In this document: positions 9,953 through 37,495 of the stretch, piece after piece
Position numbering within the stretch: position 1 is the first letter of the stretch
Layout of the letters: the number at the start of each line of letters is the position of its first letter
Assembly: GCF_900176885.1 (NCBI RefSeq)
Contig: NZ_LT839648.1
Coordinates: 2,570,618-2,634,617, forward strand
Source of the DNA: Oceanobacillus senegalensis
Lineage (GTDB): Bacteria; Bacillota; Bacilli; Bacillales; Amphibacillaceae
Direction of reading: 5' to 3'
Length of the DNA stretch: 64,000 nt
Notes under the pieces: generated by a model
The model's database searches: none
What the model was told of the DNA's origin: nothing
Seen by the model: only the letters and a program-made list of their open reading frames with translations
Made by a program: the position numbers and the translations under genes

Positions 9953-9955
9953 CAA

Positions 9956-14572: not shown

Positions 14573-14623
14573 ACTTTCACCCCTATCTTTTAACATTTGG
14601 GTTTACCCATTTACTATAAAGAT

Positions 14624-14646
14624 GCCAACCAGCTTGTGTGGCTGGC
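14624..14646 (-). other. Intercistronic RNA hairpin between TAXI binding-protein and permease genes
   Basis: On the minus strand, GCCAGCCA and TGGTTGGC can pair over a 7-base loop with one G-U pair and no U tract. It sits in the 96-base gap between the binding-protein and permease genes. It could protect upstream mRNA or lower read-through so that binding protein exceeds permease. A similar arrangement occurs at 35185-35218. Confidence 0.45.
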
Positions 14647-14668
14647 TCTTTATAAATCAAAGTAAATA

Positions 14669-15844: not shown

Positions 15845-15915
15845 TTTCTACCTCCTCGTATCCACTTAAAATGTTTTTATTACTTATACTCAATATTAGA
15901 CATGTTTTACAAAAC

Positions 15916-18105: not shown

Positions 18106-18106
18106 C

Positions 18107-19270
18107 TTATCTCCTTCCTTTCGAACTAGGTAATCCTAGAGATTTAGCAATAATATTCTTTTGGACTTGTGTCGTTCCTGCATAAATTGTTTCTGCTCTT
18201 GATGCAAGGAATTTCTCCATCCAAACATGATTTTCATCCTTAACAAGTGCATTTTCCCCTAATAAGTCAACCCCTAAATTAAGTAAATCTTGATGACTTT
18301 CACTCCAAACAAGTTTAGCGATCGCAGGTATAGAACCTGTATTTTCCCCCTGAGAAATCAACGCAATATTCCGTAAAGACACACTTTTTAATATTTCACA
18401 AGATAGATAGGCTTGAACTAATTTATTTAAGAATATAGAACTGTTAGCATTTGCTTGTCCTGAAAGCATCTTTTCTTGGGTCATGGAAATAAGTTGTTGA
18501 AATTCTTGTTGCATTTTTAGGGAGCGCTGCGCAAAGTGTATTCCTCGTTCATTAGATAAAGCGTAATTTGCCATTTCCCAACCATTATTTATTTCTCCAA
18601 CAACATCATCTTTCGGAACAATAGCATTATCTAGGAAAACTTCAGAAAGTTCTGTTTCACCCGCTATGTTTGTAATTGGTTGCACCGTTACGCCGGGTTG
18701 TATTAAATCTAAAATCATCATACTTATTCCTTTATATCTCGATTTATCCGTCCGCACTAAAACATAACACTTATTGGCATATGGTGCATATGATGTCCAG
18801 ACCTTTTGACCATTAAGTATATAATGATTACCCTTATCCTCGGCTTTTGTTTGTAATCCAGCTAAATCTGATCCAGCATTTGGCTCAGAAAAACCTTGAC
18901 ACCAAATATCTTCATGTTGAAGCATCCTTGGAAGGTAATACTCTTTTTGTTTTTCAGTCCCATATTTGATTAAGGTCATACCGAAAATTCCAATTCCGTT
19001 AGAATTTAAAACTTCAGGTGCATTAATACGGACTAATTCCTCAATATAGATTAATTGCTGCTCAATCGTTAAACCTAACCCTCCATACTTTTTCGGCCAT
19101 GATGGAGCTACCCAACCTGCATCAGCTAACATTCTTCCCCATTGCTTTCTTCGATCCACCAACTGTTCTCCAGTTACTTCTTTCTTCCATTCTAATGGAA
19201 AATTATTATTTAACCATTCTCGAAATGATTCTCTAAATTGTTCTGCATCCTGAGAATATTTAAAATCCAT
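18107..19270 (-). CDS. Acyl-CoA dehydrogenase, partner subunit
   Basis: This acyl-CoA dehydrogenase of about 387 residues has QGFSEPNAGSDLAGLQTKAED near 120, NGQKVWTSYA near 147, and IYAGTTQVQKNIIAKSLGLP at the C-terminus. The YEGT catalytic Glu is Ala here. The pattern matches the large subunit of heteromeric dehydrogenases acting on ring, dicarboxylic or side-chain CoA esters. The ATG at 19270 is used because GGGGGAGAGAGG lies just upstream; an earlier in-frame ATG at 19303 would precede that site. It is the first gene of a two-gene operon driven from 19430-19458. Confidence 0.86.
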   Translation of the reverse strand: MDFKYSQDAEQFRESFREWLNNNFPLEWKKEVTGEQLVDRRKQWGRMLADAGWVAPSWPKKYGGLGLTIEQQLIYIEELVRINAPEVLNSNGIGIFGMTLIKYGTEKQKEYYLPRMLQHEDIWCQGFSEPNAGSDLAGLQTKAEDKGNHYILNGQKVWTSYAPYANKCYVLVRTDKSRYKGISMMILDLIQPGVTVQPITNIAGETELSEVFLDNAIVPKDDVVGEINNGWEMANYALSNERGIHFAQRSLKMQQEFQQLISMTQEKMLSGQANANSSIFLNKLVQAYLSCEILKSVSLRNIALISQGENTGSIPAIAKLVWSESHQDLLNLGVDLLGENALVKDENHVWMEKFLASRAETIYAGTTQVQKNIIAKSLGLPSSKGRR

Positions 19271-19303
19271 ATACCTCTCTCCCCCTTTACCTATTAATTT
19301 CAA

Positions 19304-19656
19304 CCATTCATCAGTAGTATTCCCCCTACTTATACAAAAATAATATATAATCTTTTACTAAAATCCCAACCTTGCAACCGCTTACTAAAATACTATTTTG
19401 GGAACCTATTATTTTATTTCTTATTAGCAATTTTATATACTAACAAAATTTTTGTCAACCAAGAATTTGAACTTTTGAAAATTATTTAAATATAATGTTT
19501 TTAACGAAAATTTTTAAAAAATAAATATTAAATATAACGATGGTTAAACCCTATTTTTCTGTTATAAAATTAAGAACAAAGATTTTTGTTTTTGATCCAA
19601 ATATTCTTATCAAGTTGTCCGTCAACAAATTTTTTAATGTCCAAGACAATAAAAAA
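19304..19656. other. Intergenic region upstream of the paired dehydrogenase operon
   Basis: About 350 very AT-rich bases with no gene on either strand. The region holds the promoter at 19430-19458 and abuts the terminator of the MmgE/PrpD cluster. Nothing else recognisable is seen. Confidence 0.45.
19430..19458 (-). promoter_or_regulatory. Sigma-A promoter of the paired dehydrogenase operon
   Basis: On the minus strand TTGACA (19453-19458) and TAAAAT (19430-19435) are 17 bases apart. The 28-base core is almost identical to the element at 5427-5455. The expected leader to the ATG at 19270 is about 150 bases. Confidence 0.6.
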
Positions 19657-19681
19657 TTACCAAGCCACTAAAGCTTGGTAA
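19657..19681 (-). terminator. Rho-independent terminator of the C5-dicarboxylate-type cluster
   Basis: On the minus strand TTACCAAGC and GCTTGGTAA form a 9-bp stem with a 7-base loop followed by a run of six T, immediately after the MmgE/PrpD stop codon. It is a textbook terminator and marks the 3' end of the cluster starting at 30614. Confidence 0.85.
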
Positions 19682-19691
19682 CTTTTGCTAA

Positions 19692-21047
19692 CTATACCCC
19701 AGCCCTATCAAACAAACGAAAAATCTCTCCAACCTCACTGACATTCTCCAAATCCAACACCTGGTTAGCTAAATTCCTTCGCTCATCCTCCGATAGTTCT
19801 GTTGCCAATTTCAAAAACTTCTCACGTAACTCTGAACCAAATACTGGATTCTCAGGATCTCCCTTTGGATAATCGGTCTGTTTTATGATTTTCTCACCTG
19901 ATGTAAAGGAAACCTCAACAATTACCCCCCATTTCTCGGGATAATTATCGTTAATCTCCGGATCTACTTCTACCTGAACTTTTTTCATCAAGTTACGAAT
20001 TTTCCCGTTCCATAATGTATCCTGATTAAAGGCGTCCAGTCCACCCTCACCTTTAACTAAAGCTAGAGCCGTACAATACTGAAGACTAAACTTTGATGCA
20101 TATTCTGTGTTAGGATTATCATTATCCGTGATATCCAGCGCCACCTGGTATGTTTTTACACGTACACCTTTAATGTCGTCCTCAGAAATTCCCTTTTCCT
20201 TCTTCAAGTCAATCAATAAATCCATGGCATGGTGTGTATGTCGACAAGACGCATGGATTTTAAAACCATTTTCCATGATTTTAAACTTATTTCCTAACTG
20301 ATTGGTCACCTTTGATTCATCGAACGTTTCACTCATTGCTTGGAAGAAACCACGATCACCCTCTAATATCTTACTAGCTCCAGTAAAGCCTTTTTGTGCC
20401 AACAACCCACTGATTACACCATTCATGGCAGCTTTTCCAGGATGAAGCTGTTTTGACATTGCCCCGTCCTCAATAAATTCCCATAACCCAGCAGCTTGTG
20501 TACCAGCACTTCCTAGAGCATGAATGATTTGTTCCTCATTTAGATTTAACAATTTTGCCACAGCTGCAGTTGCACCAAATGTTCCACAAGTAGCCGTATT
20601 ATGCCAGTAGTAATAATGAGAAGGTGTCACCGCTTCACCAATTCGAAACCCTACCTCATAACCAATAATAACTGCAGTAATCAAGTCTTTTCCAGATAAT
20701 TTCTTCCATTCCGCAACAGCTAGGGCTGCAGGAACAACAACAGTTGCAGCGTGAATGATGGATGCCTTATGAATATCGTCCAATTCAACAATATGGCTAG
20801 ATGCACCATTTACCAGAGCAGCCTGAGCAACCGATGTTTTTCCACCCGTAACTAATGTTGCTTGTGGTGTTCCACCCATTTCTATCGCAAAATCATGAAT
20901 CATTTGTACGGGGGCTTTTGTTGACCCAGCAATGGCTGAGCCAAAGTAATCTAAAATACATAGTTTCGTAAATTCTACTACCTCATCTGGAAAATCGTCA
21001 TAATTGGTTTCCATTATATACGTAGCCAATTCTTTACTTAATCCCAT
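19692..21047 (-). CDS. MmgE/PrpD family protein
   Basis: This 451-residue protein is full length for the MmgE/PrpD family (2-methylcitrate dehydratase, cis-aconitate decarboxylase/IRG1 and relatives). It shows FTKLCILDYFGSAIAGS near 26-42, GASSHIVELDDIHKASIIHAATVVVPAALA near 85, ATCGTFGATAAVAKLL near 150, and SCRHTHHAMDLL near 272. The family eliminates or decarboxylates tricarboxylates or isomerises related acids. It is the last gene of the cluster, after MaoC, CaiB and CitE genes. That combination resembles proteobacterial itaconate loci, which also carry an MmgE/PrpD gene. The exact reaction is not readable. Confidence 0.85.
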   Translation of the reverse strand: MGLSKELATYIMETNYDDFPDEVVEFTKLCILDYFGSAIAGSTKAPVQMIHDFAIEMGGTPQATLVTGGKTSVAQAALVNGASSHIVELDDIHKASIIHAATVVVPAALAVAEWKKLSGKDLITAVIIGYEVGFRIGEAVTPSHYYYWHNTATCGTFGATAAVAKLLNLNEEQIIHALGSAGTQAAGLWEFIEDGAMSKQLHPGKAAMNGVISGLLAQKGFTGASKILEGDRGFFQAMSETFDESKVTNQLGNKFKIMENGFKIHASCRHTHHAMDLLIDLKKEKGISEDDIKGVRVKTYQVALDITDNDNPNTEYASKFSLQYCTALALVKGEGGLDAFNQDTLWNGKIRNLMKKVQVEVDPEINDNYPEKWGVIVEVSFTSGEKIIKQTDYPKGDPENPVFGSELREKFLKLATELSEDERRNLANQVLDLENVSEVGEIFRLFDRAGV

Positions 21048-21064
21048 TATTCTTTCCCCCTTTA

Positions 21065-21595
21065 TTAGTCTACCTTTAACTGTTCATTTTCTAGTACCTT
21101 GTCTAACAAATCGTTCGTTCTATTCGGAGCAAATTCTTTCTTATAAATCATAAATGTACGTTTATAAGAAATAACAACTTCCTCCCGATGGTTATATCCA
21201 ATCGTTTTGACAGTTACAATCCCAACATTTGGACGAGATTTAGACTCTCGTTTTTGTAGTACCTCCGAATAAGAATAGATCGTGTCCCCCTCGAATACTG
21301 GATTAGGTAGGCGAATTTCATCCCAGCCAAGATTTGCCATCGCATTTTGTGAGATATCGGTAACCGACTGTCCAGTCACCAAAGCTAGTGTAAACGTAGA
21401 GTCTACTAAAGGTTTCTTAAACTCCGTCTGCTCCGAATAATAATCATCGAAATGAATTGGATTTGTATTTTGTGTTAATAATGTCACCCAAATATTGTCT
21501 GTTTTTGTTACCGTTCTCCCCAGTGGATGGGCATAAATATCACCTATTTCAAAATCCTCATAGAATCGACCCTTCCATCCATCCTTTACACTCAT
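21065..21595 (-). CDS. MaoC-family hydratase, itaconyl/mesaconyl-CoA hydratase-like
   Basis: This single-domain MaoC protein of 176 residues has the pattern typical of itaconyl- and mesaconyl-CoA hydratases: GRFYEDFEIGDIYAHPLGRTVT near 9-30, TQNTNPIHFDDYYSEQTEFKKPLVDS near 41-66 with the catalytic His and Asp, and NLGWDEIRLPNPVFEGDTI near 88-106. It should convert the C5 enoyl-CoA to citramalyl-CoA. It lies between the CoA-transferase gene (15 bases) and the MmgE/PrpD gene (18 bases). The ATG follows AAGGAGG. The substrate is inferred from family and neighbours. Confidence 0.82.
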   Translation of the reverse strand: MSVKDGWKGRFYEDFEIGDIYAHPLGRTVTKTDNIWVTLLTQNTNPIHFDDYYSEQTEFKKPLVDSTFTLALVTGQSVTDISQNAMANLGWDEIRLPNPVFEGDTIYSYSEVLQKRESKSRPNVGIVTVKTIGYNHREEVVISYKRTFMIYKKEFAPNRTNDLLDKVLENEQLKVD

Positions 21596-21609
21596 GATGA
21601 ACCTCCTTT

Positions 21610-22767
21610 TTAATTTTTTACAAAGTCTTTACTAAATCCTAATTCTGCCAATATTTTATCAGTGTGTTCCCCTAGTTCAGGAACAGGGTTCATCACAGGA
21701 TTAATACCATTCATTGTTACAGGTGGTTTCAATGCAGAGATCTCTCCAGTAGGTGTCTGTACGTTAGTCCAACGATTTCTAGCTGCTAGTTGTGGGTGAT
21801 CATAGAAATCTTGTAAATTGTTCAATCTAGCATTAGCTATTTTTGCTTCTTCCAGACGGTTAATTACCTTAGCCGAATTTAATGTATCAAAACTTTGCTC
21901 AATGATAGATTTTAACTCGTTACGATTTTCTGACCGTTTAGAATTATTCTCAAATCTAGCATCTGTTGCAAGTTCTGGTTTTTCAAGGACGATATCACAG
22001 AACTTTTTCCATTCTCTTTCGTTCTGTAGTCCGATAAAAACCGTTTTCTCATCCCCACATACAAACGGACCATATGGATAAATCGTTGCATGACTTGCTC
22101 CCGTACGTTTTGGTTCTTTCCCACCATAAACGGAGTAATACATTGGAAAACCCATCCACTCTCCAAGTGCTTCTAACATAGACACTTCCATGATAGTGCC
22201 TTTTCCTGTTTTCCCACGGTTTAGAAGTGCAGTTAATACGCCAGAATATATGTACATTCCAGCTGCAATGTCTGCAATTGAAATGCCTGTTTTGGACGGT
22301 GTATCTTCACTACCTGTGACAGACACAAGCCCGGCCTCACATTGGATTAATAAGTCATATGCCTTTTTATGTTCATAGGATCCATTTTTCCCATAACCGG
22401 AAAGGCTAGAAACAATAAGCTGTTGATTCTTCTCAACCAATTCTTCTGGAATAAAACCCATTCGTTCTATAGCTCCAGGTGCTAAATTTTGAACGAATAC
22501 ATCTGCTTCTTCCAAAAGTTTACTTAGTACTTGTTTCCCTTCATCTGATTTCAAATCAAGGGTAATGGATTCTTTGGAGCGATTACACCATACAAAATGA
22601 CTGGACATTCCATTTACCGTCGTATCATAGTTTCTTGCAAAGTCCCCTGTTTCAGGGCGTTCTACCTTAATCACACGTGCCCCTAAATCTGCCAATTGTC
22701 TGGTTGCAAAAGGAACTGCAATCGCCTGTTCTAAAGAAATAACCGTAACACCTTCTAAAGGTAACAT
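21610..22767 (-). CDS. CaiB/BaiF family CoA-transferase
   Basis: This 385-residue class III CoA-transferase has KVERPETGDFARNYD near 35-49, NRSKESITLDLKS near 61, and KKAYDLLIQCEAGL near 138-151, where the Asp of AYD is the expected nucleophile. It moves CoA from a donor such as succinyl-CoA to a carboxylate. With the adjacent CitE-like lyase and MaoC hydratase it fits itaconate, mesaconate or citramalate activation. The ATG follows GAGGAGG. Spacing to both neighbours is short, so it is part of one operon. Confidence 0.86.
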   Translation of the reverse strand: MLPLEGVTVISLEQAIAVPFATRQLADLGARVIKVERPETGDFARNYDTTVNGMSSHFVWCNRSKESITLDLKSDEGKQVLSKLLEEADVFVQNLAPGAIERMGFIPEELVEKNQQLIVSSLSGYGKNGSYEHKKAYDLLIQCEAGLVSVTGSEDTPSKTGISIADIAAGMYIYSGVLTALLNRGKTGKGTIMEVSMLEALGEWMGFPMYYSVYGGKEPKRTGASHATIYPYGPFVCGDEKTVFIGLQNEREWKKFCDIVLEKPELATDARFENNSKRSENRNELKSIIEQSFDTLNSAKVINRLEEAKIANARLNNLQDFYDHPQLAARNRWTNVQTPTGEISALKPPVTMNGINPVMNPVPELGEHTDKILAELGFSKDFVKN

Positions 22768-22793
22768 CTAAATTCCTCCTCGTTTCTTTTTTA

Positions 22794-23648
22794 CTAATAA
22801 TTCATATCTACATGCAACAAAATTTTCCTTGCCCGTTCTGCTACTGGTATATCAATCATTTTCCCATCTACCTGAATGGCAGCTTCACCTTTATCCAAAG
22901 ACTCGCTATATACTTGTACTATTTTCTTTGCCTCTTCAATTTCTTCAGGAGATGGAGAAAAAATTCGATTAACCGTATTTATTTGATTGGGGTGGATCAG
23001 TAATTTCCCTTGGAAACCCAATCTTTTCCCAAGCTCAGTTTCCTCTCTCAACCCTTCCTCGTCTTTGAAATTAGTAAATACAGAATCGACAGGGGCTTCG
23101 ATTCCTGCTGCACGTGATACTTCAACCAATTTAGACTTCGCGTAAAGCAATTCGGTTCCATGAATATCTGTAGTTATATTCGAATCCAACCTAAAATCCT
23201 CCGCACCAAAAGCTAAACAGTGAATCTGTTTACTTGCAGTTGCAATTTCATATGCATGATAAAGGCCTGCAGCGGTTTCAATAAGAGGAACAATTAATAT
23301 CTGTTTATCAATGCGATATTTCTTTTTTAAACTGTTTAGAATGTAATCTGTTATCACTATATCTTCTTTTGTCTCAACTTTTGGCAAAACAACCCCTGTT
23401 AAACCGTCTTTTACGATTTCATATAAATCATCCAGGAAATAAGATGTGGTGCGATCATTAATTCGAACGAAATTCATAGTGCTTTTTAATTCTTGAATAA
23501 TCTTAGAAACTTTTAATCTTGCGCTCCCTTTTTCCGAATCTGAAACAGCATCTTCCAAATCAAAAATCAAAGCATTTGCTTTTAGTTGATACGTTTTAGC
23601 TAAATGTTTATCATTATTCCCTGGAATAAACATCCATGACTTAAACAT
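22794..23648 (-). CDS. HpcH/HpaI (CitE-like) lyase, probable citramalyl-CoA lyase
   Basis: This 284-residue TIM-barrel protein has RSWMFIPG-like start KSWMFIPGNNDKHL, metal and substrate motifs FDLEDAVSDSEK near 29-40, VLPKVETKEDI near 87, LIETAAGLYHA near 121 and FGAEDFRLD near 145. CitE-like enzymes of this length, without other citrate lyase subunits, cleave citramalyl-, malyl- or methylmalyl-CoA to acetyl-CoA plus a 2-oxo acid. Here the expected products are pyruvate and acetyl-CoA. No citrate lyase alpha or gamma subunit is nearby, which argues against citrate lyase. Confidence 0.84.
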   Translation of the reverse strand: MFKSWMFIPGNNDKHLAKTYQLKANALIFDLEDAVSDSEKGSARLKVSKIIQELKSTMNFVRINDRTTSYFLDDLYEIVKDGLTGVVLPKVETKEDIVITDYILNSLKKKYRIDKQILIVPLIETAAGLYHAYEIATASKQIHCLAFGAEDFRLDSNITTDIHGTELLYAKSKLVEVSRAAGIEAPVDSVFTNFKDEEGLREETELGKRLGFQGKLLIHPNQINTVNRIFSPSPEEIEEAKKIVQVYSESLDKGEAAIQVDGKMIDIPVAERARKILLHVDMNY

Positions 23649-23661
23649 GAAATCCTCCTCT

Positions 23662-25296
23662 CTAAGGTAAACCAGTTATATTAAAATTCCAGACTAATGG
23701 TAAATACGCGTAAATGATGGCAGTTAACAAAACAGAAAATGTAATATTTAACCAAAATCCTGCTTTTGCCATATCTGATATGGTGAGAACACCTGAACTA
23801 AATACGATGGCATTTGGCGGTGTAGCAATTGGGAACATAAATGCACAAGAAGCAGCAATTGTAGTACCTACTAAAAACGCCAATGGATCAACTTCTAACG
23901 CAACTGCTAACGCCCCCATAATTGGTATTAACATGGTTGCTGTCGCGGTATTTGATGTAATTTCCGTTAAAAAAATAACTAAAAATATAACAAAAAATAG
24001 AATCGCAGCGAACGGCAAGTTTGATAGTCCAGTTAATTGATTACCAATCCATTCTGTTAGACCTGAGCTGGTAAATCCTGCAGCAATGGCAAGGCCACCA
24101 CCAAATAAAATTAAAATCCCCCATGGCAACTTGGTAGCAGTTTCCCAATTAAGAATCGTTTCTCCTTTTTGTTTGGATGGGAGGAGAAAAAGAATGAATG
24201 CTGCTGCCATTGCAATAATCGCATCTGAAATATTTGGTGATACATATGGTTGAAGTAGGAAAGTTCGAGTAATCCAGGCCAATGCTGTTACTACAAACAC
24301 TGTTGCAACCATTTTTTCTTCAATACTCATTGGACCTAATTCTTTTTTCTGGTTGCTTATAATCTCCTTACCACCTGGCAATTCACTAAGCTTAAATCGG
24401 AATAAAACTTTAACGAGTAAAAAGTAAGAAATGGAGGTGAATAGAATGGCAACTGGAACACCAAATAGCATCCAACTTGCAAAAGAAATATTTATTCCAT
24501 AAGTTTCATTAACGAAACCAACAAGAATGGCATTAGGTGGTGTACCAATTAATGTGCCAAGGCCACCTGTTAGTGCAGAGTAGGATATGGCTAACATTAA
24601 AGCTTTACCAAATCTCTTTTTCGTAGCTTCCTTCCCATTCACATGATGTTGATCTAGTAACTCATCAAACTTCAGTATGATTGCCGTCCCAATTGGAACC
24701 ATCATCATCGTTGTGGCAGTACTTGAAATCCACATCGATAAAAAAGCTGTTGCAACCATAAAACCTAATATCAGTCTTTCTGCACTTGTACCAACCACAC
24801 TAATAATGGTTAATGCAATTCTTCGATGTAAATTCCATCTTTCCATTGCTAGGGCAACTAGAAATCCTCCCATAAACAAGAAAATGATATCTGAGCTATA
24901 GGATGAAGTAGTTGTACTTATATCTAAGGCACCAGTTAGTGGAAACAATAAAATCGGCAGAAGTGCCGTTACGGGAATGGGCATGGCCTCTGTCATCCAC
25001 CAAACCGCCATCCATAATGTAACGGCTAATACTGCTTTCCCTTCACTAGATAAACCATTTGGTTCAAATAAAAGTATAATAAGTAAAAATAGTAGTGGAC
25101 CTGTAACTAAACCAATTTTCTGAGGAGTATTATAAATAGGTGTTGGAGGTTTATTTGACTGTTGTTTCTTTCCCTGTTGCTTGCTAGATTCCACTAGTGC
25201 TTCCGATCCATGAACGGAAAATAGGGATAAAAGTTGCTTTATACCCTTGTGCTCCCGCCACAGGACATTATTTGTTTTTGTTATTATTTGCCTCAT
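23662..25296 (-). CDS. DASS-family sodium:dicarboxylate symporter
   Basis: This 544-residue membrane protein of the divalent anion:Na+ symporter (SLC13/CitT) family has an unusual polar N-terminal extension of about 60 residues, then WMTEAMPIPVTALLPILLFP near 100 and two pseudo-symmetric binding motifs. The C-terminal one is a canonical SNTATA (near 460); the N-terminal one reads SSTATT instead of SNT. It probably imports the di- or tricarboxylate used by the cluster. It is encoded between the GntR regulator and the CitE-like lyase. The ATG follows AGAGGTG. Confidence 0.87.
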   Translation of the reverse strand: MRQIITKTNNVLWREHKGIKQLLSLFSVHGSEALVESSKQQGKKQQSNKPPTPIYNTPQKIGLVTGPLLFLLIILLFEPNGLSSEGKAVLAVTLWMAVWWMTEAMPIPVTALLPILLFPLTGALDISTTTSSYSSDIIFLFMGGFLVALAMERWNLHRRIALTIISVVGTSAERLILGFMVATAFLSMWISSTATTMMMVPIGTAIILKFDELLDQHHVNGKEATKKRFGKALMLAISYSALTGGLGTLIGTPPNAILVGFVNETYGINISFASWMLFGVPVAILFTSISYFLLVKVLFRFKLSELPGGKEIISNQKKELGPMSIEEKMVATVFVVTALAWITRTFLLQPYVSPNISDAIIAMAAAFILFLLPSKQKGETILNWETATKLPWGILILFGGGLAIAAGFTSSGLTEWIGNQLTGLSNLPFAAILFFVIFLVIFLTEITSNTATATMLIPIMGALAVALEVDPLAFLVGTTIAASCAFMFPIATPPNAIVFSSGVLTISDMAKAGFWLNITFSVLLTAIIYAYLPLVWNFNITGLP

Positions 25297-25453
25297 ATTT
25301 TCACCTCTTTTACTGAGAATAGGAGAATCTTAAAAATGGATTGGCAACCTTATAAAAATAATATTGTGACTTTTTAGACTTTTGTTTGCGCATTAAGATA
25401 AAGGAAACTAATCTATCTGAGAAGGAGCCCTTAATAATAAGAAGAACTCCTAT

Positions 25454-26119
25454 TTATTGAAAATCATTATTTTCCATAGAGGCAATCAGTTCCTTACCTG
25501 TTCTTTCAATGTGCTTGGCCAGATATTCTCCCGCTTTCTCTACATCACCTTGATAGATAGACTCCATAATCGCCTCATGTTCCTTATTTGACTTTTGTAT
25601 CTGACCTGGAATTAGTTGTGGTGTATCTTGGGCAAATCCATGGGAAATCGTTTCAATAAAACCAAGTAGACGTGGGCTATTACAACGACTGAATAATAAA
25701 TTATGAAACTTAACATTTAACTCCACATAAGATTCACCTGTACTAGCACTCACCATTTCTTGATGCAATAATGATAATTGTTTAAAGTCATTCTCTGTAA
25801 AATACTGTATACTCTTCTTTAATGCAACTGGCTCTAGTAAAATTCGAAGTTCATAAATTTCTTGAATATCTTGTTTTTGAATGGTCCTTACAACCGCACC
25901 TTTATGAGGTTCAATCTTTACAAGACCCTCTAGCTCCAATGTACGTAACGCTTCTCTTACTGGCATTCGACTTACTCCAATCAAATCAGCTAACTCAGCT
26001 TGTACGAGGCGTTCCCCTGGTGTAAAGTCCCCTTTTAAAATAGCCCTTCTTAATATACTACATACACGACTATGCAACATTTCCCTATTACCAATACGTA
26101 AATCCAATTTCTCCGCCAT
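25454..26119 (-). CDS. GntR-family regulator, FadR/FCD subfamily
   Basis: This regulator of about 221 residues has an N-terminal winged helix (RVCSILRRAILKGDFTPGERLVQAELADLIGVSRMPVREALRTLE) and a C-terminal all-helical FCD domain that binds small carboxylates through a metal-binding His set. The ATG at 26119 follows TAGGAG; an upstream in-frame GTG at 26161 has no site. It lies inside the cluster, and an inverted repeat typical of this family lies upstream of the first gene at 30636-30652. It is probably the local carboxylate-responsive repressor. Confidence 0.87.
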   Translation of the reverse strand: MAEKLDLRIGNREMLHSRVCSILRRAILKGDFTPGERLVQAELADLIGVSRMPVREALRTLELEGLVKIEPHKGAVVRTIQKQDIQEIYELRILLEPVALKKSIQYFTENDFKQLSLLHQEMVSASTGESYVELNVKFHNLLFSRCNSPRLLGFIETISHGFAQDTPQLIPGQIQKSNKEHEAIMESIYQGDVEKAGEYLAKHIERTGKELIASMENNDFQ

Positions 26120-26204
26120 CTCGAATTCTCCTAAATTTTTTATGGATAAGGTATCATTCACTTATTTTTAAAAATAATAGGCTTCCCTTCTTCTATTTTG
26201 TGAA

Positions 26205-26762
26205 TCATACATCTGATTGTTTATAATTTGCTATCCCTTCTTGGTAATAATCGCCACCATACATATCATTAATGACAATTGCTGGAAAGTTCTTCACTTC
26301 CATTTTTCTAATGGCTTCTGTTCCTAAATCCTCGTAAGCAATGACTTCAACTTTTTTAATCGTTTTTGCAATTAGGGCTGCCGAACCACCTACTGCGGCA
26401 AAATATACCGCATGATTTTCTTTAATTGCCTGTTTTACTTGTTCATTGCGGTACCCTTTTCCTATCATTCCTTTCATACCTAATTCAAGTAACTTTGGCG
26501 TATATGCGTCCATTCTCGAACTAGTGGTAGGCCCTGCAGAACCAATTACCTGTCCTGGCTTTGCAGGTGTGGGGCCAACATAATAGATAATCTGATTCTT
26601 TATATCAAATGGAATTTCCCCACCGTTCTCAAGGGATTCAGCCATTCTTTTATGTGCTGCATCACGAGCTGTATAAATTGTTCCTGTGAGACGTACTTGA
26701 TCCCCCGCCCTTAAATCTTTTACTATATCATCGTCTAGTGGTAGTTTGATAGATTTAGGCAT
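26205..26762 (-). CDS. Class I fumarase/tartrate dehydratase beta subunit
   Basis: This 185-residue protein matches the C-terminal (TtdB-like) domain of class I hydro-lyases: GDQVRLTGTIYTARDAAHKR near 20-39, GPTTSSRMDAYTP near 77-89, GMIGKG near 95, and INDMYGGDYY near 163-172. With the alpha subunit encoded 16 bases upstream it forms an iron-sulfur hydro-lyase for fumarate, tartrate or mesaconate. The cluster context favours mesaconate/citramalate interconversion, but fumarase activity is also possible. The ATG follows AAAGGAG. Confidence 0.88.
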   Translation of the reverse strand: MPKSIKLPLDDDIVKDLRAGDQVRLTGTIYTARDAAHKRMAESLENGGEIPFDIKNQIIYYVGPTPAKPGQVIGSAGPTTSSRMDAYTPKLLELGMKGMIGKGYRNEQVKQAIKENHAVYFAAVGGSAALIAKTIKKVEVIAYEDLGTEAIRKMEVKNFPAIVINDMYGGDYYQEGIANYKQSDV

Positions 26763-26778
26763 TTCTTTTACTCCTTTA

Positions 26779-27621
26779 TTACAAGATTGCTACTTGATGT
26801 CTACTTGCATGGCAATTCAGGTTAACAGCTACTGGCAATGTAGCAATATGACATGCCTCTGCTTCAATTTTTACATCAAGTGCTGTCGTTGACCCTCCTA
26901 ATCCCTGTGGTCCAATACCTAATCGATTAATTTCCCTCATCAGTTCTTCCTCTAAATCTGCAATCGTTTTGTCTGGATTACGTTCACCAATTGGCCGAAA
27001 CAATGACTTCTTTGCTAAGAAAGCACAGCGTTCAAAGTTACCACCAATACCAATACCAACGACTAATGGTGGACATGCATTCGGTCCTGCCACCTTTACG
27101 ATATCTAAGATATAATTCTTGATTCCAGTAAGACCATCAGAAGGTTTCAGCATTTTCATATCACTCATATTTTCTGCGCCTCCACCTTTGGCTGTCATAT
27201 GGATGGTGATTTGATCCCCTTCAACCAATTCTATATGGATAACTGCAGGAGTATTATCCCCTGTATTCATACGGTTTAATGGATCACCTACAATCGAACT
27301 TCGTAGATAACCTTCACCATAACCTTTCCGTACTCCTTCATTAATTGCATCCGAAAGTTTACCACCATCAATATGACAATCTTGACCAACCTCAACAATA
27401 AAGACAGCCGTTCCCGTATCTTGACACATTGGGACATATTCTGTTGTTGCTACATTTGCATTGTCTACGAGTTGCTGGAGTACATCTTTTCCAACAGGTG
27501 ATTCTTCCGTACGTAATGCTTTCTGAAATGCTTCAAACACATCTTCGCCCAAATGATAGTTTGCTTCTTGGCACATGGAAGCTACATTTTGAACGAGTTC
27601 TTCATACGTTATTTTTCTCAC
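26779..27621 (-). CDS. Class I fumarase/tartrate dehydratase alpha subunit
   Basis: This protein of about 280 residues is the [4Fe-4S] domain of class I hydro-lyases. Cluster ligands are expected at Cys in MCQDTGTAVF near 61, GGNFERCAFLAKK near 188, and the later Cys in IEAEACHIATLP. GGGAENMSDMKML near 145 is a family signature. The start is GTG at 27621, six bases after AAAGGTG; the upstream GTG in frame is inside that site. It pairs with the beta gene downstream and is separated from the dehydrogenase gene upstream by a perfect hairpin at 27656-27691. Confidence 0.88.
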   Translation of the reverse strand: MRKITYEELVQNVASMCQEANYHLGEDVFEAFQKALRTEESPVGKDVLQQLVDNANVATTEYVPMCQDTGTAVFIVEVGQDCHIDGGKLSDAINEGVRKGYGEGYLRSSIVGDPLNRMNTGDNTPAVIHIELVEGDQITIHMTAKGGGAENMSDMKMLKPSDGLTGIKNYILDIVKVAGPNACPPLVVGIGIGGNFERCAFLAKKSLFRPIGERNPDKTIADLEEELMREINRLGIGPQGLGGSTTALDVKIEAEACHIATLPVAVNLNCHASRHQVAIL

Positions 27622-27655
27622 ATTAATCACCTTTCTAAATAGTGGATAATCGGGT

Positions 27656-27691
27656 AACTTCCATTAGCAGGATAAGCTGCTAATGGAAGTT
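27656..27691 (-). other. Perfect 15-bp hairpin inside the cluster
   Basis: The arms AACTTCCATTAGCAG (27656-27670) and CTGCTAATGGAAGTT (27677-27691) pair perfectly over a 6-base loop. No T tract follows on the minus strand, so this looks like an attenuator, RNA-stability hairpin or processing site between the dehydrogenase gene and the hydro-lyase alpha gene, not a full terminator. Confidence 0.6.
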
Positions 27692-27703
27692 CATTCAATT
27701 CAT

Positions 27704-28864
27704 TTAAAACGATCTTGGTAGTCCAAGAACGTGTTGACCAATGTACGTTGTAACTAGGTTATTGGTAACAGGTGCAACAATGAATAAACGGGCTTCTCTA
27801 AATTTACGTTCAATATTGTATTCTTTTGCAAATCCATATCCACCATACGTTGTCATCGCAGCATTAGCAGCTTTCCAAGTAGATTCCGTTGCCAAATACT
27901 TCGCCATATTTGCTTCCGCTCCGCACTTTTCCCCTGCGTCAAATAGTTTTGCTGCCTTATCTCTCATTAATGTTGCAGCTTCAATATCCATATACGATTG
28001 TGCGATTGGAAATTGAACCCCTTGATTTTGACCAATTGGACGATTAAAGACAACACGTTCGTTTGCGTATTGGACAGATCTATCGACAAAGTATTTTCCG
28101 TCCCCAAGACTTTCTGATGCTACTAGGATACGTTCTGCGTTCATTCCGCTTAATACATACTTAAATCCCTTTCCCTCTAACCCAATCAAGTTTTCTTCAG
28201 GAATCTCCGCATTTTCAAAGAAAACTTCCGTTGTCGCATGGTTAATCATTGTATCAATTGGGCGAATCGTAATATTGTCTTGCTGATCTTTCATATCAAG
28301 AATAAATAAGCTTAGTCCATCCGTTTTCTTCGCTACTTGGTCTTTAGGTGTTGTTCTAGCTAGAAGTAACATCAGATCGGAATGCTCTGTACGAGAGATA
28401 AATATTTTTTGCCCATTTACAATATATTTATCCCCTTGTTTAACTGCAGTGGTGGTAATACTTGTCGTATCACTTCCAGCAGTAGGTTCCGTAATACCAA
28501 ATGCTTGAAGTCTTAATTCTCCACTAGCAATTTTCGGAAGGTAACGTTGTTTTTGTTCCTCACTACCATGTCTCAAGATGGCTCCCATGGTATACATTTG
28601 CGCATGCCCTGCACCTGAATTCCCACCAGAACGGTTGATTTCCTCCAAAATAATTCCAGCTTCCAACATCCCAAGACCAGCTCCACCATATTCTTCTGGA
28701 ATCAATACAGATAACCAGCCCTCGTTTGTTAACGCTTTAATAAATTCTTCTGGATATTCATCCTTTTCGTCGGTTTCCCTCCAGTAAGTTTCTGGAAACT
28801 TATCACATAATGCACGAACACTTTCACGGATTAATTCAAGATCTTGAACAGTACTTGTAGCCAT
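27704..28864 (-). CDS. Acyl-CoA dehydrogenase family protein of the C5 cluster
   Basis: This 386-residue acyl-CoA dehydrogenase has GITEPTAGSDTTSITT near 119, KYIVNGQKIFISR near 142, and YGGYGFAKEYNIERKFREARL near 340. The usual YEGT region is FIVAPVTNNLV, so the typical catalytic Glu is absent; this variant recurs in dehydrogenases ending in HVLGLPRS. A similar gene occurs in proteobacterial itaconate loci. It could oxidise methylsuccinyl-CoA or a related C5 ester. The ATG follows AAAAGGGGAAATG. Family certain, substrate inferred. Confidence 0.85.
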   Translation of the reverse strand: MATSTVQDLELIRESVRALCDKFPETYWRETDEKDEYPEEFIKALTNEGWLSVLIPEEYGGAGLGMLEAGIILEEINRSGGNSGAGHAQMYTMGAILRHGSEEQKQRYLPKIASGELRLQAFGITEPTAGSDTTSITTTAVKQGDKYIVNGQKIFISRTEHSDLMLLLARTTPKDQVAKKTDGLSLFILDMKDQQDNITIRPIDTMINHATTEVFFENAEIPEENLIGLEGKGFKYVLSGMNAERILVASESLGDGKYFVDRSVQYANERVVFNRPIGQNQGVQFPIAQSYMDIEAATLMRDKAAKLFDAGEKCGAEANMAKYLATESTWKAANAAMTTYGGYGFAKEYNIERKFREARLFIVAPVTNNLVTTYIGQHVLGLPRSF

Positions 28865-28881
28865 TTTACATTTCCCCTTTT

Positions 28882-29676
28882 TTATTTATTTTTCCAATTT
28901 GGTTGGCGTTTTTCATTAAATGCAAGAATCCCTTCCTGCCTATCTTCTGAATTAGCAGTTTTATAATAATTATTAAGCTCGATGGTTAACGCTGTGTGAA
29001 GGTCAGTTTGCAGTCCGTTATTAACTGACTCTTTCAGTGTTTTTAAAGATAATGGTGCATTTTTAGCAATTTCTCTAGCAACCTGTAAGGTGTTTTCTTC
29101 CAATTTTTCTATGCTAAAGACATCATTTAAAAGCCCTAATTCTTTAGCTCTTTTGGAATCCATTTGGCTTCCTCTAAAAAGGTATTCTTTTGCAATCCCG
29201 ACAGGAATAACACGTGGTAGGTTTTGTGTACCGCCTACACCTGGGATGATTCCAATTTTCGCCTCTGGTAGTCCTAATCTGGCGTGTGAAGCAGAATAGC
29301 GAAGGTCACAACTTAACGCCATTTCCAATCCCCCGCCTAAAGCATAACCATTAATCGCCGCAATAACTGGATACGGAAAATCACGGATCTCCTTGAATGC
29401 GTTCTCAAAAATATCGTGTTGTTTCTTCCATTGTTTATTTGTCATACCATTTCTTTCTTTAAGGTCTGCCCCAACACAGAAGCTCTTTTCACCATTAGCA
29501 GTAATAATTAAAACACGTATATCTTCATCCTCTTTAAGTTCTTGAAGACTATTTAATAAATCAAGACCCATTTGTGTGTTCATTGCATTCATGGAATTAG
29601 GTCTGTTTAGTGTGATGGTATAAACACCTTTAGTTTCCTCGTCTTTTTTGATCAATAATGTTTCATATTGCTCCAT
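28882..29676 (-). CDS. Enoyl-CoA hydratase/isomerase family protein
   Basis: This 264-residue crotonase has FCVGADLKERNGM near 66-78, NGYALGGGLEMALSCDLRYS near 110-129 and LPEAKIGIIPGVGGTQNLPR near 135-154. It should hydrate or isomerise a short enoyl-CoA. It lies between the HMG-CoA-lyase-like gene and the dehydrogenase gene; this trio resembles leucine-type branched-acid degradation (methylglutaconyl-CoA hydratase plus HMG-CoA lyase), which is an alternative reading for part of the cluster. The ATG follows a run of G. Confidence 0.87.
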   Translation of the reverse strand: MEQYETLLIKKDEETKGVYTITLNRPNSMNAMNTQMGLDLLNSLQELKEDEDIRVLIITANGEKSFCVGADLKERNGMTNKQWKKQHDIFENAFKEIRDFPYPVIAAINGYALGGGLEMALSCDLRYSASHARLGLPEAKIGIIPGVGGTQNLPRVIPVGIAKEYLFRGSQMDSKRAKELGLLNDVFSIEKLEENTLQVAREIAKNAPLSLKTLKESVNNGLQTDLHTALTIELNNYYKTANSEDRQEGILAFNEKRQPNWKNK

Positions 29677-29687
29677 TTTATTCCCCC

Positions 29688-30614
29688 CTATGCTTCCGTC
29701 GGTATTTTATATTGACGGTTAGACTTACCAGCTTTCAATACATAACTAGATAATTCATGACCCATCAATTCTTTTAATCTTCTTGATGCTGCTATAAGTT
29801 TATCCAAATCAACACCTGTGTCTATTCCCATATTGTGCAGCATATGTACAACATCTTCGGTACACACATTACCTGTCGCACCAGGTGCGAATGGACAACC
29901 ACCAAGCCCTCCTAATGAAGCATCAAAACTAGTAATGCCAGCTTCTATTCCAGCTAGAATATTAGAAAGTCCCATTCCTCTTGTATTATGAAAATGTAGA
30001 TTAAAAGCTTGTTCAGGGAAACTTTCCCTCATCATTTTTACAAATTCATAGACTTGTTTTGGATTGGCCATTCCTGTTGTATCAGCAAAGGTTATTAAAT
30101 TGGCTCTCAATTCGATTACCTGTTTTACGATTTCTTTCACTCGCTTAACTGGTACTTCCCCTTCAAACGGACAACCGAATGATGTTGCGATAGATACCTC
30201 TAGTTTTATATCGCTATTATCACAAAATTCCTTGATTGCCTTTAATCTTTCTAGCGATTTTTCTGTCGTTTGCCTTACATTTTGGAGGTTATGTGTATTA
30301 CTTGCAGAAAAAACAAAATTAACTCGTTTTACCCCATGTTTTGCTGCATTTTCAGTTCCCTTTAAATTAGGAACTAAAGCAACTAGATTGAGCGCTTCAC
30401 GGTGTTTGATTAACTCAAATAATTCTCCAGAGTTAGCCATTTGTGGTACTGCCTTTGGATGAACGAAAGAGCCAAATTCTAGATTCGTAGTATTTGCTTC
30501 GTATAACAAATTGACTAATTCCTGCTTTTCATTGACAGATAAAATCTTATCTTCCAATTGAATACCATCTCGAAGAATGACCTCATTAATGGTTACCTTC
30601 TGAGGTAGGCTCAT
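29688..30614 (-). CDS. Hydroxymethylglutaryl-CoA lyase-like protein
   Basis: This HMGL-like TIM barrel of about 308 residues has NEVILRDGIQLEDK near 10-23 (the RDGxQ active-site motif), metal-binding HFH near 207-209, and the signature GGCPFAPGATGN with active-site Cys near 238-249. It cleaves a 3-hydroxy-3-methylglutaryl-type CoA ester to acetyl-CoA and an oxo acid. The ATG at 30614 follows GGAGGGGAG; an earlier in-frame ATG has no site. It is the first gene of the cluster, downstream of a strong promoter and a GntR-type inverted repeat. Confidence 0.86.
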   Translation of the reverse strand: MSLPQKVTINEVILRDGIQLEDKILSVNEKQELVNLLYEANTTNLEFGSFVHPKAVPQMANSGELFELIKHREALNLVALVPNLKGTENAAKHGVKRVNFVFSASNTHNLQNVRQTTEKSLERLKAIKEFCDNSDIKLEVSIATSFGCPFEGEVPVKRVKEIVKQVIELRANLITFADTTGMANPKQVYEFVKMMRESFPEQAFNLHFHNTRGMGLSNILAGIEAGITSFDASLGGLGGCPFAPGATGNVCTEDVVHMLHNMGIDTGVDLDKLIAASRRLKELMGHELSSYVLKAGKSNRQYKIPTEA

Positions 30615-30761: not shown

Positions 30762-30790
30762 ATTATACGTAATTTCATTTTATCTGTAAA
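30762..30790 (-). promoter_or_regulatory. Sigma-A promoter of the C5-dicarboxylate-type cluster
   Basis: On the minus strand TTTACA (30785-30790) and TATAAT (30762-30767) are separated by exactly 17 bases. It is the best promoter in this gap and points to the HMG-CoA-lyase-like gene, giving a leader of about 140 bases that contains the inverted repeat. Confidence 0.6.
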
Positions 30791-30801: not shown

Positions 30802-31614
30802 CTAAATATTAATTTTCCTCTTTATGTCTTCTAATATTGATGTAACAATGTGCAACGTATCATACTCTCCCTCTGAATACTCTATTAATTTATAATTTTT
30901 CGGGAACAGTTTTCGCTTTATCTCATATGCTATATTTCCTTGGTTATATAGTTCCTCCACTTTTGCATAAATTTCCTCAAGATAGATCATTTTTTTTCTT
31001 AACATGGCTCTACCATTTGGAACAAATCCAGTGTGTGAACAAAAAAGGCTTTCAAAATTTAAACTCAGTAATTTCCTTATGGAGTGAATTATCATTGGAA
31101 TGGACTCATCTTTCATGATAATTTTTGTTTCAGGAGATATGTACAAATCTCCAGCAAATAACCTACCAGACTCTTCATGAAATAATGAAACATGATCATT
31201 AGCATGACCAGGAGTATAAATAACCTTCCATTCAAGATTGGCAGACTGAATAGTTGACTCTACTGGGAGCACTTCAAATGGCTTCCTAATTCCCCAGGTT
31301 TGTTGACGGTACATGGGATATGAAACAGGTTTTTCACATATCTCTATTCCCTTTGGATGAATATATATAGGTACATTTTTGTTTTCTTTAATCCATGAAG
31401 CAGTACCCGTATGATCTTCATGACTATGTGTCAACATAACTAAATTAAATGAATGCTCCTGATAAAACGGTATTAACTCCTCAAGTAAAATGACAGGACC
31501 TGTATCAATTAACATCCCATCTACTATATACATATAAACTGTTCGGCCTGCTTTACCAAGCTTGGTAACCAGCTTGACACAATTGACATCTTCAAGTTCT
31601 GTCATATGTATCAT
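30802..31614 (-). CDS. MBL-fold metallo-hydrolase
   Basis: This 270-residue metallo-beta-lactamase-fold protein has the metal motif THSHEDHTG (62-70), IYTPGHANDHVSLFHE with a further His near 138, and LFAGDLYI near 153. Proteins of this class hydrolyse thioesters, lactones or glyoxalase-type substrates. It lies 28 bases after the second DASS transporter gene and is probably co-transcribed with it. The start at 31614 has GGAGG at a wide spacing; an ATG three codons later is an alternative. The substrate is unknown. Confidence 0.84.
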   Translation of the reverse strand: MIHMTELEDVNCVKLVTKLGKAGRTVYMYIVDGMLIDTGPVILLEELIPFYQEHSFNLVMLTHSHEDHTGTASWIKENKNVPIYIHPKGIEICEKPVSYPMYRQQTWGIRKPFEVLPVESTIQSANLEWKVIYTPGHANDHVSLFHEESGRLFAGDLYISPETKIIMKDESIPMIIHSIRKLLSLNFESLFCSHTGFVPNGRAMLRKKMIYLEEIYAKVEELYNQGNIAYEIKRKLFPKNYKLIEYSEGEYDTLHIVTSILEDIKRKINI

Positions 31615-31642
31615 CTTCCAAACACAACCTCCTACTAGTAAT

Positions 31643-33082: not shown

Positions 33083-33126
33083 GTTTCTCTCAACTTCTTC
33101 CTATTTTTGTACTAAGAGATAGATAA

Positions 33127-33169
33127 ATAGAAATGTATAGCATTATTTATAGATGCTATACATTTCTAT
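33127..33169 (-). terminator. Strong hairpin after the second TRAP permease gene
   Basis: ATAGAAATGTATAGCA and TGCTATACATTTCTAT pair over 16 bp with an 11-base loop, 17 bases after the permease stop codon. The T tract on the minus strand is imperfect (TTTAT). Position and stem length support a terminator. Confidence 0.65.
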
Positions 33170-33185
33170 GAGATACCTTCTTAAA

Positions 33186-35144: not shown

Positions 35145-35184
35145 AGCATCCACCTCCTAAAACGGAATGATTTTATATGTTTTT

Positions 35185-35218
35185 AATAGATTCCCTATCT
35201 TTAGACGGGGAATCTATT
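35185..35218 (-). other. Intercistronic RNA hairpin between TAXI binding-protein and permease genes
   Basis: AATAGATTCCC (35185-35195) and GGGAATCTATT (35208-35218) pair over 11 bp with a 12-base loop in the short gap between the two genes. On the minus strand it is followed by A residues, so it is not a terminator there. It mirrors the hairpin at 14624-14646. Confidence 0.55.
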
Positions 35219-35232
35219 ATTTTAGTATCTAA

Positions 35233-36285: not shown

Positions 36286-36301
36286 CGCTTTTTCCTCCTT
36301 T

Positions 36302-37330: not shown

Positions 37331-37495
37331 TTTACTTAATAATACCTACACCCCCTTATTATTTTTAGGAATATTAAACCAATTTGGATATTTCTTATTA
37401 TAAAGCGCTTACAATTATGTAGCAATAATAAAAACATAATAATCTTTTTGGTCTTTTTGTTCTCAAATGTTCTGATAATCTTCTAGAGAATATTA

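Follow-up and report, generated by a model that had tools for sequence, protein, structure and literature searches.

A Bacillota operon for probable C5-dicarboxylate degradation with a candidate second hydratase and lyase pair

Introduction

What does a bacterial operon degrade when it encodes both a MaoC hydratase and a crotonase, and both a CitE-like lyase and a homologue of hydroxymethylglutaryl-coenzyme A (HMG-CoA) lyase? This question is raised by eleven genes at positions 19692-30614 of a 64,000-nucleotide stretch of Oceanobacillus senegalensis DNA (contig NZ_LT839648.1), which is referred to here, in its whole length, as the window. The surrounding genome comprises 4.3 Mb, and the nearest named relatives at this locus are Oceanobacillus salinisoli and O. 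halophilus.

Sequence comparison gives good confidence that the operon is the Bacillota counterpart of a known cluster for itaconate/methylsuccinate degradation, with a C5-dicarboxylate core that would match the CHARACTERISED pathway. In Pseudomonas aeruginosa and Cupriavidus necator, this cluster consists of five genes, ich, mcd, mmgE/msi, ict, and ccl (PMC12290011, PMC9875883). More tentatively, we propose that the operon supports two stereo-complementary routes by which mesaconyl-C4-CoA would be converted to acetyl-CoA and pyruvate. The MaoC hydratase and the CitE-like lyase would act via (S)-citramalyl-CoA, and the crotonase and the HMG-CoA-lyase homologue via (R)-citramalyl-CoA. In several families, the second pair may have replaced the first hydratase.

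In a published survey, 96.2% of methylsuccinate isomerases were found in Pseudomonadota (PMC12290011). The same route now appears to be present in halophilic Bacillaceae and in other families of the order, with candidate mesaconases built in.

Structure of the operon

As the initial annotation of this DNA had stated, all eleven genes are present on one strand between a promoter-like site (30790-30762) and a terminator-like stem (19686-19652). The genes were taken from the list of open reading frames of the window, and their family names were confirmed by profile matches. In operon order, the features are:

30762-30790, minus strand: promoter-like site upstream of the operon, TTTACA-17-TATAAT, 11 of 12 consensus matches
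29688-30614, minus strand: HMG-CoA-lyase homologue, proposed (R)-citramalyl-CoA lyase; 308 residues from a conserved start, longest reading frame to 30695
28882-29676, minus strand: crotonase-type enoyl-CoA hydratase (Crotonase family), proposed mesaconyl-C4-CoA hydratase acting on the opposite face to MaoC
27704-28864, minus strand: acyl-CoA dehydrogenase of the Mcd type, predicted by homology to be a methylsuccinyl-C4-CoA dehydrogenase
26779-27630, minus strand: class I [4Fe-4S] hydro-lyase alpha (FumA), proposed mesaconase; TIGR00722 and NF004885 above cut-off
26205-26762, minus strand: class I hydro-lyase beta (FumB), proposed mesaconase; TIGR00723 and NF005310 above cut-off
25454-26161, minus strand: GntR-family protein, probable local regulator; GntR-type profile matches, none above cut-off
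23662-25296, minus strand: DASS-family sodium/dicarboxylate symporter, probable uptake; TIGR00785, 303 bits against a cut-off of 198.6
22794-23648, minus strand: CitE-like lyase, proposed (S)-citramalyl-CoA lyase by homology
21610-22767, minus strand: class III (CaiB) CoA-transferase of the Ict type, predicted by homology to serve itaconate, methylsuccinate, and (S)-citramalate
21065-21595, minus strand: MaoC hot-dog hydratase, RipB-like, predicted by homology to be an itaconyl/mesaconyl-C4-CoA hydratase
19692-21047, minus strand: MmgE/PrpD protein, proposed (S)-(R)-methylsuccinate isomerase (active-site match, tree, and hidden Markov model)
19652-19686, minus strand: stem-loop resembling a terminator, past the end of the operon, with 15 pairs followed by a T-rich tail, the longest in the region

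The intergenic gaps, in the same order, are 11, 17, 73, 16, 43, 157, 13, 26, 14, and 17 bp. The 157-bp gap between the GntR and DASS genes leaves room for an internal promoter, and a search for inverted repeats that might serve as operators found none in it. The promoter region contains four short, A+T-rich inverted repeats, and the stretch past the operon contains 15. The region has about as many promoter-like sites as shuffled sequence (44 against a mean of 42.7, standard deviation 7.4), and terminator-like sites are in slight excess (11 against 6.8, standard deviation 2.5). Because these counts lie near the shuffled level, the sites are to be taken as consensus matches only. The score of 11 out of 12 is reached by two promoter-like sites in the region, the one at 30790-30762 and another at 19458-19430, downstream of the operon. 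The clustering of the genes themselves is far above chance, since the gene set is also clustered in other genera and families.

Core enzymes of the probable C5 pathway

The reference for comparison was an annotated P. aeruginosa plasmid record in which the gene order is as published and the MmgE protein has the seven published active-site residues at their published numbers. The CaiB protein of the window is 59.2% identical to the CoA-transferase of this cluster. In the CaiB tree, it falls with the Pseudomonas protein in a single clade of 22 rows (support 100/100), as expected of an orthologue of Ict. Similarly, the acyl-CoA dehydrogenase is 59.3% identical to its P. aeruginosa counterpart and belongs to a single clade of 30 rows that includes the Mcd proteins of P. 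aeruginosa and Cupriavidus (100/99), as expected of an orthologue of Mcd.

The MmgE/PrpD protein is more divergent, at 40.7% identity, and is the sole MmgE match in the genome at E 0.001. The active site of the P. aeruginosa isomerase is formed by H88, E91, H102, Y148, H152, K202, and K266 (PMC12290011). All seven are matched in the window protein, as H85, E88, H99, Y145, H149, K199, and K263, with a constant offset of three. In the tree, the protein lies in a Bacillota clade of 19 rows (96/98) that is nearest to a seven-row isomerase clade. A hidden Markov model built from four isomerases scores those four at 885-895 bits, three further proteins of the isomerase clade at 626-733, the window protein at 431, and MmgE proteins outside both clades at 197-320.

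Together, these matches bear out the C5-dicarboxylate reading of the initial annotation, with a shift of emphasis among the substrates. Itaconate and mesaconate had been named, and a dehydrogenase and an MmgE/PrpD gene had been listed among the parts of the Pseudomonas itaconate loci. In the characterised cluster, both of these proteins act for methylsuccinate, not for itaconate or mesaconate (PMC12290011). Methylsuccinate is consequently no less likely than itaconate to be a substrate.

A further revision concerns the hydratase, which had been presented as shared with the Pseudomonas locus. A tblastn search of the window with P. aeruginosa Ich gave no match at E 10, and three Pseudomonadota controls were detected. 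At this level, the window hydratase is not an orthologue of Ich and is instead MaoC/RipB-like. It matches the RipB/Ich model NF038241 with E 1.6e-59 and 200.7 bits, which is under the cut-off of 340. Seven further Bacillaceae copies are 79-91% identical to it. As a separate observation, seven Actinomadura loci (L040-L046) carry a MaoC protein 57-59% identical to that of the window, followed in 7/7 by distant CaiB and MmgE proteins (28-30%), which points to a pathway that is related but not the same.

Human CLYBL, which PMC6689899 names a citramalyl-CoA lyase, is the best solved relative of the CitE-like lyase (E 6e-42).

The class I hydro-lyase as a probable mesaconase

Class I fumarases hydrate mesaconate to (S)-citramalate (PMC4682846). 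When P. putida carried the Pseudomonas cluster, its use of mesaconate depended on a class I fumarase encoded outside that cluster (PMC9875883). The genome of the window also encodes a separate class II fumarase (777.8 bits, above cut-off), and a role of the class I enzyme as the sole fumarase of the tricarboxylic acid cycle was rejected on this ground. Since the class II fumarase would free the class I enzyme for mesaconate, the operon hydro-lyase is probably a mesaconase, as the initial annotation had proposed, and it remains a good candidate for that role. Three cysteines of the alpha subunit (C69, C186, and C273) are presumably ligands of the iron-sulfur cluster. The alpha gene lies near the cluster in 19 of 20 other genomes that were tabulated, the exception being G172, whose genes are at contig edges. 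Mesaconase biochemistry is not new to Bacillus, because a mesaconase of a soil Bacillus, for methylmalate and mesaconate metabolism, is already cited in PMC4682846.

A proposed second route through (R)-citramalyl-CoA

These assignments suggest the following pathway. C5 dicarboxylates would be taken up by the DASS transporter and by TRAP transporters encoded upstream, and the MmgE protein would interconvert (S)- and (R)-methylsuccinate. The CaiB protein would transfer CoA from succinyl-CoA to methylsuccinate, itaconate, or (S)-citramalate, and the dehydrogenase would convert methylsuccinyl-C4-CoA to mesaconyl-C4-CoA. The MaoC protein would hydrate itaconyl-CoA or mesaconyl-C4-CoA to (S)-citramalyl-CoA, which the CitE-like lyase would cleave to acetyl-CoA and pyruvate. 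Mesaconate would be admitted by the class I hydro-lyase, through hydration to (S)-citramalate.

The product of the dehydrogenase would also be open to a second pair of hydratase and lyase, made up of the crotonase and the HMG-CoA-lyase homologue. In the likeliest version, the crotonase would hydrate mesaconyl-C4-CoA to (R)-citramalyl-CoA, and the lyase homologue would cleave the latter. The argument for this step is stereochemical. In PMC6689899, specificity for (R)-HMG-CoA is described for the CitE-type enzymes PA0883 and Rv2498c, the latter of which also cleaves (S)-citramalyl-CoA; the HMG-CoA-lyase-type enzyme PA2011 is specific for (S)-HMG-CoA. By our own derivation, (S)-HMG-CoA and (R)-citramalyl-CoA should be spatially alike, because exchanging a CH2COOH arm for COOH swaps two priorities. 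Crotonases and hot-dog hydratases usually hydrate opposite faces, giving products of opposite stereochemistry. Thus, the crotonase product would be (R)-citramalyl-CoA, which suits a lyase of the HMG-CoA-lyase type and not a CitE-type one. Such a route would account for the crotonase and lyase travelling together. A dedicated (R)-citramalyl-CoA lyase is listed as EC 4.1.3.46 in PMC8307300.

The lyase homologue is a clear member of its family, matching NCBIfam NF004283 at 322 bits (cut-off 246). Position 28 of the longest reading frame aligns with the start residue of 9/9 aligned relatives (in G429, the codon is not ATG), and 30614 is therefore the likely true start. Residues R42, D43, E73, H234, H236, C267, and N276 (numbered on the 335-residue reading frame), which we take to be the catalytic residues of HMG-CoA lyases, are invariant in all nine aligned rows. 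Likewise, E118 and E138 of the crotonase, presumably its catalytic residues, are invariant in 10/10 aligned rows.

By sequence (E 2.1e-78) and by fold (44% identity), the best solved relative of the lyase is 6NDS, an Acinetobacter baumannii HMG-CoA lyase whose crystal structure includes CoA together with 3-methylmalate, a C5 acid. The fold comparison was made with Foldseek on an AlphaFold model of moderate confidence (mean predicted local distance difference test score, pLDDT, 78.8). A search of the openly licensed literature found no publication naming 6NDS.

In the lyase tree, the operon-type lyases group with three lyases associated with CaiB genes (97/94), and the third HMG-CoA lyase of the genome lies elsewhere. 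G362 has a fourth lyase associated with a CaiB gene, which falls outside this group. Separately, in three Bacillaceae genomes (L101:4335-9731, L126, and L127), a CaiB CoA-transferase gene and an HMG-CoA-lyase homologue lie near a GntR gene, together with a sodium:solute symporter in L101 and with TRAP genes in L126. Their lyases are the nearest group to that of the operon, and the three are candidate loci for utilisation of (R)-citramalate or HMG.

Distribution of the cluster and of the second pair

The cluster was sought at several levels. Among 159 genomes of the family, that of the window included, CitE matches at E 1e-60 were found in ten. One of these, G155, holds CaiB, CitE, and GntR with no other core gene in the 19 kb read, and it was left out of the count of 19 genomes used below. 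The MmgE, CaiB, MaoC, CitE, and dehydrogenase genes occur together in 8 of the 159 family genomes, again including that of the window. G053 has the same gene set, but its CitE gene (39% identical) is about 11-12 kb away. Other Bacillota also have the gene set, and part of it is present in Thermus and Deinococcus.

Among 299 genomes of the order, 44 had an MmgE match at E 1e-15, and the genome of the window plus ten with matches above 500 bits were followed. Two genomes with MmgE matches, G275 and G159, showed no further core gene in the 19 kb read. Among plasmid records, 717 matched MmgE and 541 matched MaoC; of 50 listed matches, 11 were sampled. The table of 20 other genomes combines 18 of the 19 genomes that were searched whole with one locus each from Lentibacillus halodurans and Shouchella, and it covers the fetched stretches only. 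In 16 of these 20, a GntR homologue at least 40% identical lies in the cluster stretch.

The HMG-CoA-lyase branch, which the initial annotation had singled out, is indeed present in the operon and recurs elsewhere. Three of the eight family genomes first read, including that of the window, have both the lyase and crotonase genes. Among the 299 order-level genomes, the lyase had close matches, at E 1e-95 or better, in the genome of the window and in G160, G196, G298, G346, and G429. The lyase-crotonase-dehydrogenase triplet is present in the window, in two Oceanobacillus genomes, and in five genomes of five different families. In the five genomes named above, the triplet has this same order, and the lyase gene is at most about 11 kb from an MmgE gene. 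A second triplet copy in G160 lies within about 13 kb of FumAB, CaiB, and CitE genes. In the G160 copy that lies near MmgE (L104:10417-14296), genes for the two subunits of an electron transfer flavoprotein (ETF alpha and ETF beta) and for a large iron-sulfur protein with a CCG domain lie between the dehydrogenase and crotonase genes, and they are likely a dedicated electron outlet of the dehydrogenase.

Of the 19 cluster-bearing genomes searched whole, the Mcd-type dehydrogenase occurs in 17, the MaoC hydratase in ten (at least 338 bits; next best 153), the operon-type crotonase in nine (at least 475 bits; next 309), and the operon-type lyase in eight (at least 549 bits; next 369). All nine copies of the operon-type lyase, from six families including that of the window, have a crotonase and a dehydrogenase in the same stretch. 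Seven genomes have the dehydrogenase without MaoC, and in every one of them a crotonase gene adjoins a dehydrogenase copy. The crotonase is of the operon type in six of these; the seventh, G251 (L118), has a divergent crotonase and a lyase that flank the dehydrogenase on either side. Conversely, a crotonase accompanies MaoC in 3/10 MaoC genomes, all in the clade of the window. This alternation gives a Fisher p value of 0.050 when operon-type crotonases alone are counted and 0.0098 when the divergent G251 crotonase is added.

G218 and G240 have MmgE and FumAB without this dehydrogenase and without either hydratase. In a separate observation on their loci (L111 in G218, L112 in G240), the MmgE and class I hydro-lyase genes are accompanied by succinate-dehydrogenase-like and CoA-ligase genes. 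The L112 flavoprotein is above cut-off at 1065 bits, and the L111 succinate dehydrogenase was recognised by Pfam only. The CoA-ligase genes are SucC- and SucD-like by NCBIfam, under cut-off, in G240, and were recognised by Pfam in G218. This variant might perhaps reflect a CoA-independent oxidation of methylsuccinate to mesaconate.

Also in loci that lack MaoC (L105, L107, and L111), a homologue (26-35%) of the 4HBT-type thioesterase encoded at 10066-10485 of the window lies between MmgE and FumA or beside FumA, confirmed by Pfam in L105 only.

Weighing the alternatives

Several observations weigh against the reading proposed here. At the level of the core, the join between the Bacillota MmgE clade and the isomerase clade is weak (81/60), and the window MmgE protein, at 431 bits, would probably not have been counted in the published isomerase survey, where the cut-off was 550 bits on a different model (PMC12290011). 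The CitE-like lyase shares just 30.6% identity with the citramalyl-CoA lyase of P. aeruginosa and falls under the NCBIfam cut-offs for CitE and for RipC/Ccl, so it is the weakest assignment in the operon. As to replacement of the first hydratase, nine of the ten MaoC genomes belong to the window's own family, so the alternation with crotonase is not independent of phylogeny and is suggestive only. G298 has a distant MaoC protein (142 bits) in another cluster, and the search for a P. aeruginosa-type hydratase, which covered only the fetched loci of MaoC-less genomes, found none (best E 2.8).

Other such points bear on what the crotonase and lyase do. Three genomes, that of the window included, carry both hydratase/lyase pairs, CitE-like genes stay near clusters that have the lyase, and G362 has the crotonase without an operon-type lyase. 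The crotonase and lyase could accordingly be bystanders, or give redundant help to the same (S)-citramalyl-CoA route, and have no stereochemical role of their own. We regard this as unlikely, as all nine operon-type lyase copies accompany a crotonase and a dehydrogenase across six families, the divergent crotonase and lyase around the G251 dehydrogenase look like a separate recruitment, and the two hydratase types usually differ in stereochemistry. On the proposal of two stereo-complementary routes, CitE would be kept near lyase loci because the mesaconase and the CoA-transferase still supply (S)-citramalyl-CoA. A different possibility, to which we likewise give a low probability, is that the triplet serves a C6 branch, from 3-methylglutaryl-CoA through 3-methylglutaconyl-CoA and (S)-HMG-CoA to acetyl-CoA and acetoacetate, with the CoA-transferase common to the C5 route. 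These are the textbook reactions of the crotonase and HMG-CoA-lyase families. Among the solved relatives of the crotonase, human methylglutaconyl-CoA hydratase ranks third, a succinate-hydroxymethylglutarate CoA-transferase is the best solved relative of the CaiB protein, and all seven presumed HMG-CoA-lyase catalytic residues are retained. The B. subtilis and human HMG-CoA lyases, moreover, match the lyase almost as well as 6NDS does, so its fold does not discriminate between substrates. Against the C6 branch, the dehydrogenase sits in the methylsuccinyl-CoA dehydrogenase clade, the crotonase is the sole recognised hydratase beside the Mcd-type dehydrogenase in the MaoC-less loci read, and the operon-type lyases cluster with three CaiB-associated lyases away from the genome's third HMG-CoA lyase. 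Nor is there an acetoacetate-activating gene among the eleven operon genes, to which that search was confined. Far less probable than either is that the MmgE/PrpD protein acts as a dehydratase and the operon serves 2-methylcitrate or some other substrate of the PrpD type. The Pfam families of this protein carry the PrpD name, but structures of 2-methylcitrate dehydratases match it at 37-39 bits, compared with 141-154 bits for IDS epimerase and B. subtilis IRG1. It has no NCBIfam match at E 1e-20, and its neighbours encode a CoA-transferase, a dehydrogenase, a hydratase, and a lyase. The 2-methylcitrate cycle was rejected on the poor structure matches and the absent NCBIfam match.

If the (R)-citramalyl-CoA branch is real, it would represent a new reaction for enzymes annotated as HMG-CoA lyases and enoyl-CoA hydratases, and a simple stereochemical reason for their travelling together. 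The operon would hold matched enzyme pairs for both citramalyl-CoA enantiomers. Given a fitting CoA-transferase, (R)-citramalate might also become a substrate; the Pseudomonas cluster cannot use it (PMC9875883).

Neighbouring genes and other loci

Upstream of the operon lies a further set of genes on the same strand:

30802-39821, minus strand: extended locus with a metallo-beta-lactamase-fold protein, a second DASS transporter, TAXI/TRAP, DctP, and a two-component system of response regulator and sensor kinase; these genes probably serve uptake and sensing

The metallo-beta-lactamase gene, second DASS gene, and TRAP genes occur in the same order in O. halophilus (L012) and O. salinisoli (L013). 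Both species also have the genes of the operon itself, but lack a DASS gene between the GntR and CitE genes. Homologues of several of the TAXI, TRAP, DctP, response regulator, and sensor kinase genes (58-76% identical) lie beside the cluster in Virgibacillus, O. damuensis, and G074. Because homologues of these upstream genes sit beside the cluster in relatives, the functional locus may extend over about 20 kb.

On the other side, an adjacent pair of acyl-CoA dehydrogenase genes (16945-19303) resembles pimeloyl-CoA dehydrogenase (small and large subunits) at scores under cut-off, and lies by the promoter-like site at 19458-19430. The pair was rejected as part of the operon, being pimeloyl-CoA dehydrogenase-like and past the terminator-like stem, and because no such pair was found after MmgE in L012 or L013. 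Farther along, 920-16716 holds a second acyl-CoA catabolic cluster on the same strand as the operon, with acyl-CoA dehydrogenases, two citryl-CoA-lyase-like (PRK06224) proteins, SDRs, a crotonase, a CoA ligase, a 4HBT thioesterase, TAXI/TRAP, and IclR. A stretch of a Roseibium plasmid (L098) has citryl-CoA lyase, acyl-CoA dehydrogenase, and SDR genes near MmgE and HMG-CoA-lyase genes.

The genome of the window also contains a second CitE-MaoC-CaiB set (L021:5490-11787; 33, 48, and 34% identical, respectively). It is accompanied by TRAP genes of the DctP/DctM kind and an IclR-like regulator, and may be a further route for C5 or related dicarboxylates. A tandem pair of UvdE-type UV endonuclease genes is located at 51132-53075 of the window.

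Comparison with described systems

In the openly licensed literature, we found no description of such a cluster in Bacillaceae and no report of an HMG-CoA lyase in C5-dicarboxylate clusters. For the window lyase, we propose the reaction of EC 4.1.3.46, which Chloroflexus aurantiacus carries out with its (R)-citramalyl-CoA lyase. That lyase is itself homologous to HMG-CoA lyases and is paired with a CoA-transferase of the CaiB type. The available portion of the Chloroflexus genome paper has nothing on a citramalyl-CoA lyase of the HMG-CoA-lyase type.

A plasmid locus of Thermus thermophilus (L052) brings together a dehydrogenase (62.5% identical to that of the window), CaiB (57.7%), MaoC (69.8%), FumA (50%), FumB (51%), GntR (39%), a CitE-like protein (28%), and TAXI/TRAP. 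No MmgE, crotonase, or HMG-CoA lyase gene occurs within the 14-kb stretch read.

With the P. aeruginosa/Cupriavidus cluster, the window shares the CaiB protein and the dehydrogenase (59% each), an MmgE/PrpD protein with the same active site, and a CitE-type lyase. As in the window, a dicarboxylate transporter lies near the P. aeruginosa cluster. In contrast to that cluster, the window operon includes the class I hydro-lyase and has extra crotonase and HMG-CoA-lyase genes. Its regulator is of the GntR instead of the LysR family, its transporters are DASS and TAXI/TRAP, and its hydratase is MaoC/RipB-like, whereas the Pseudomonas-type hydratase is a protein of 275 residues.

The ripABC cluster of Yersinia provides the closest named family of the window MaoC protein, RipB, and its RipC family is matched by the CitE-like lyase at 179.6 bits, under the cut-off of 375. 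Compared with ripABC, the window adds the dehydrogenase, MmgE, and the class I hydro-lyase, and its CoA-transferase is of the CaiB type, not the RipA type of the Yersinia cluster. Judged by these likenesses, the operon appears to mix features of the Pseudomonas-type and Yersinia-type clusters.

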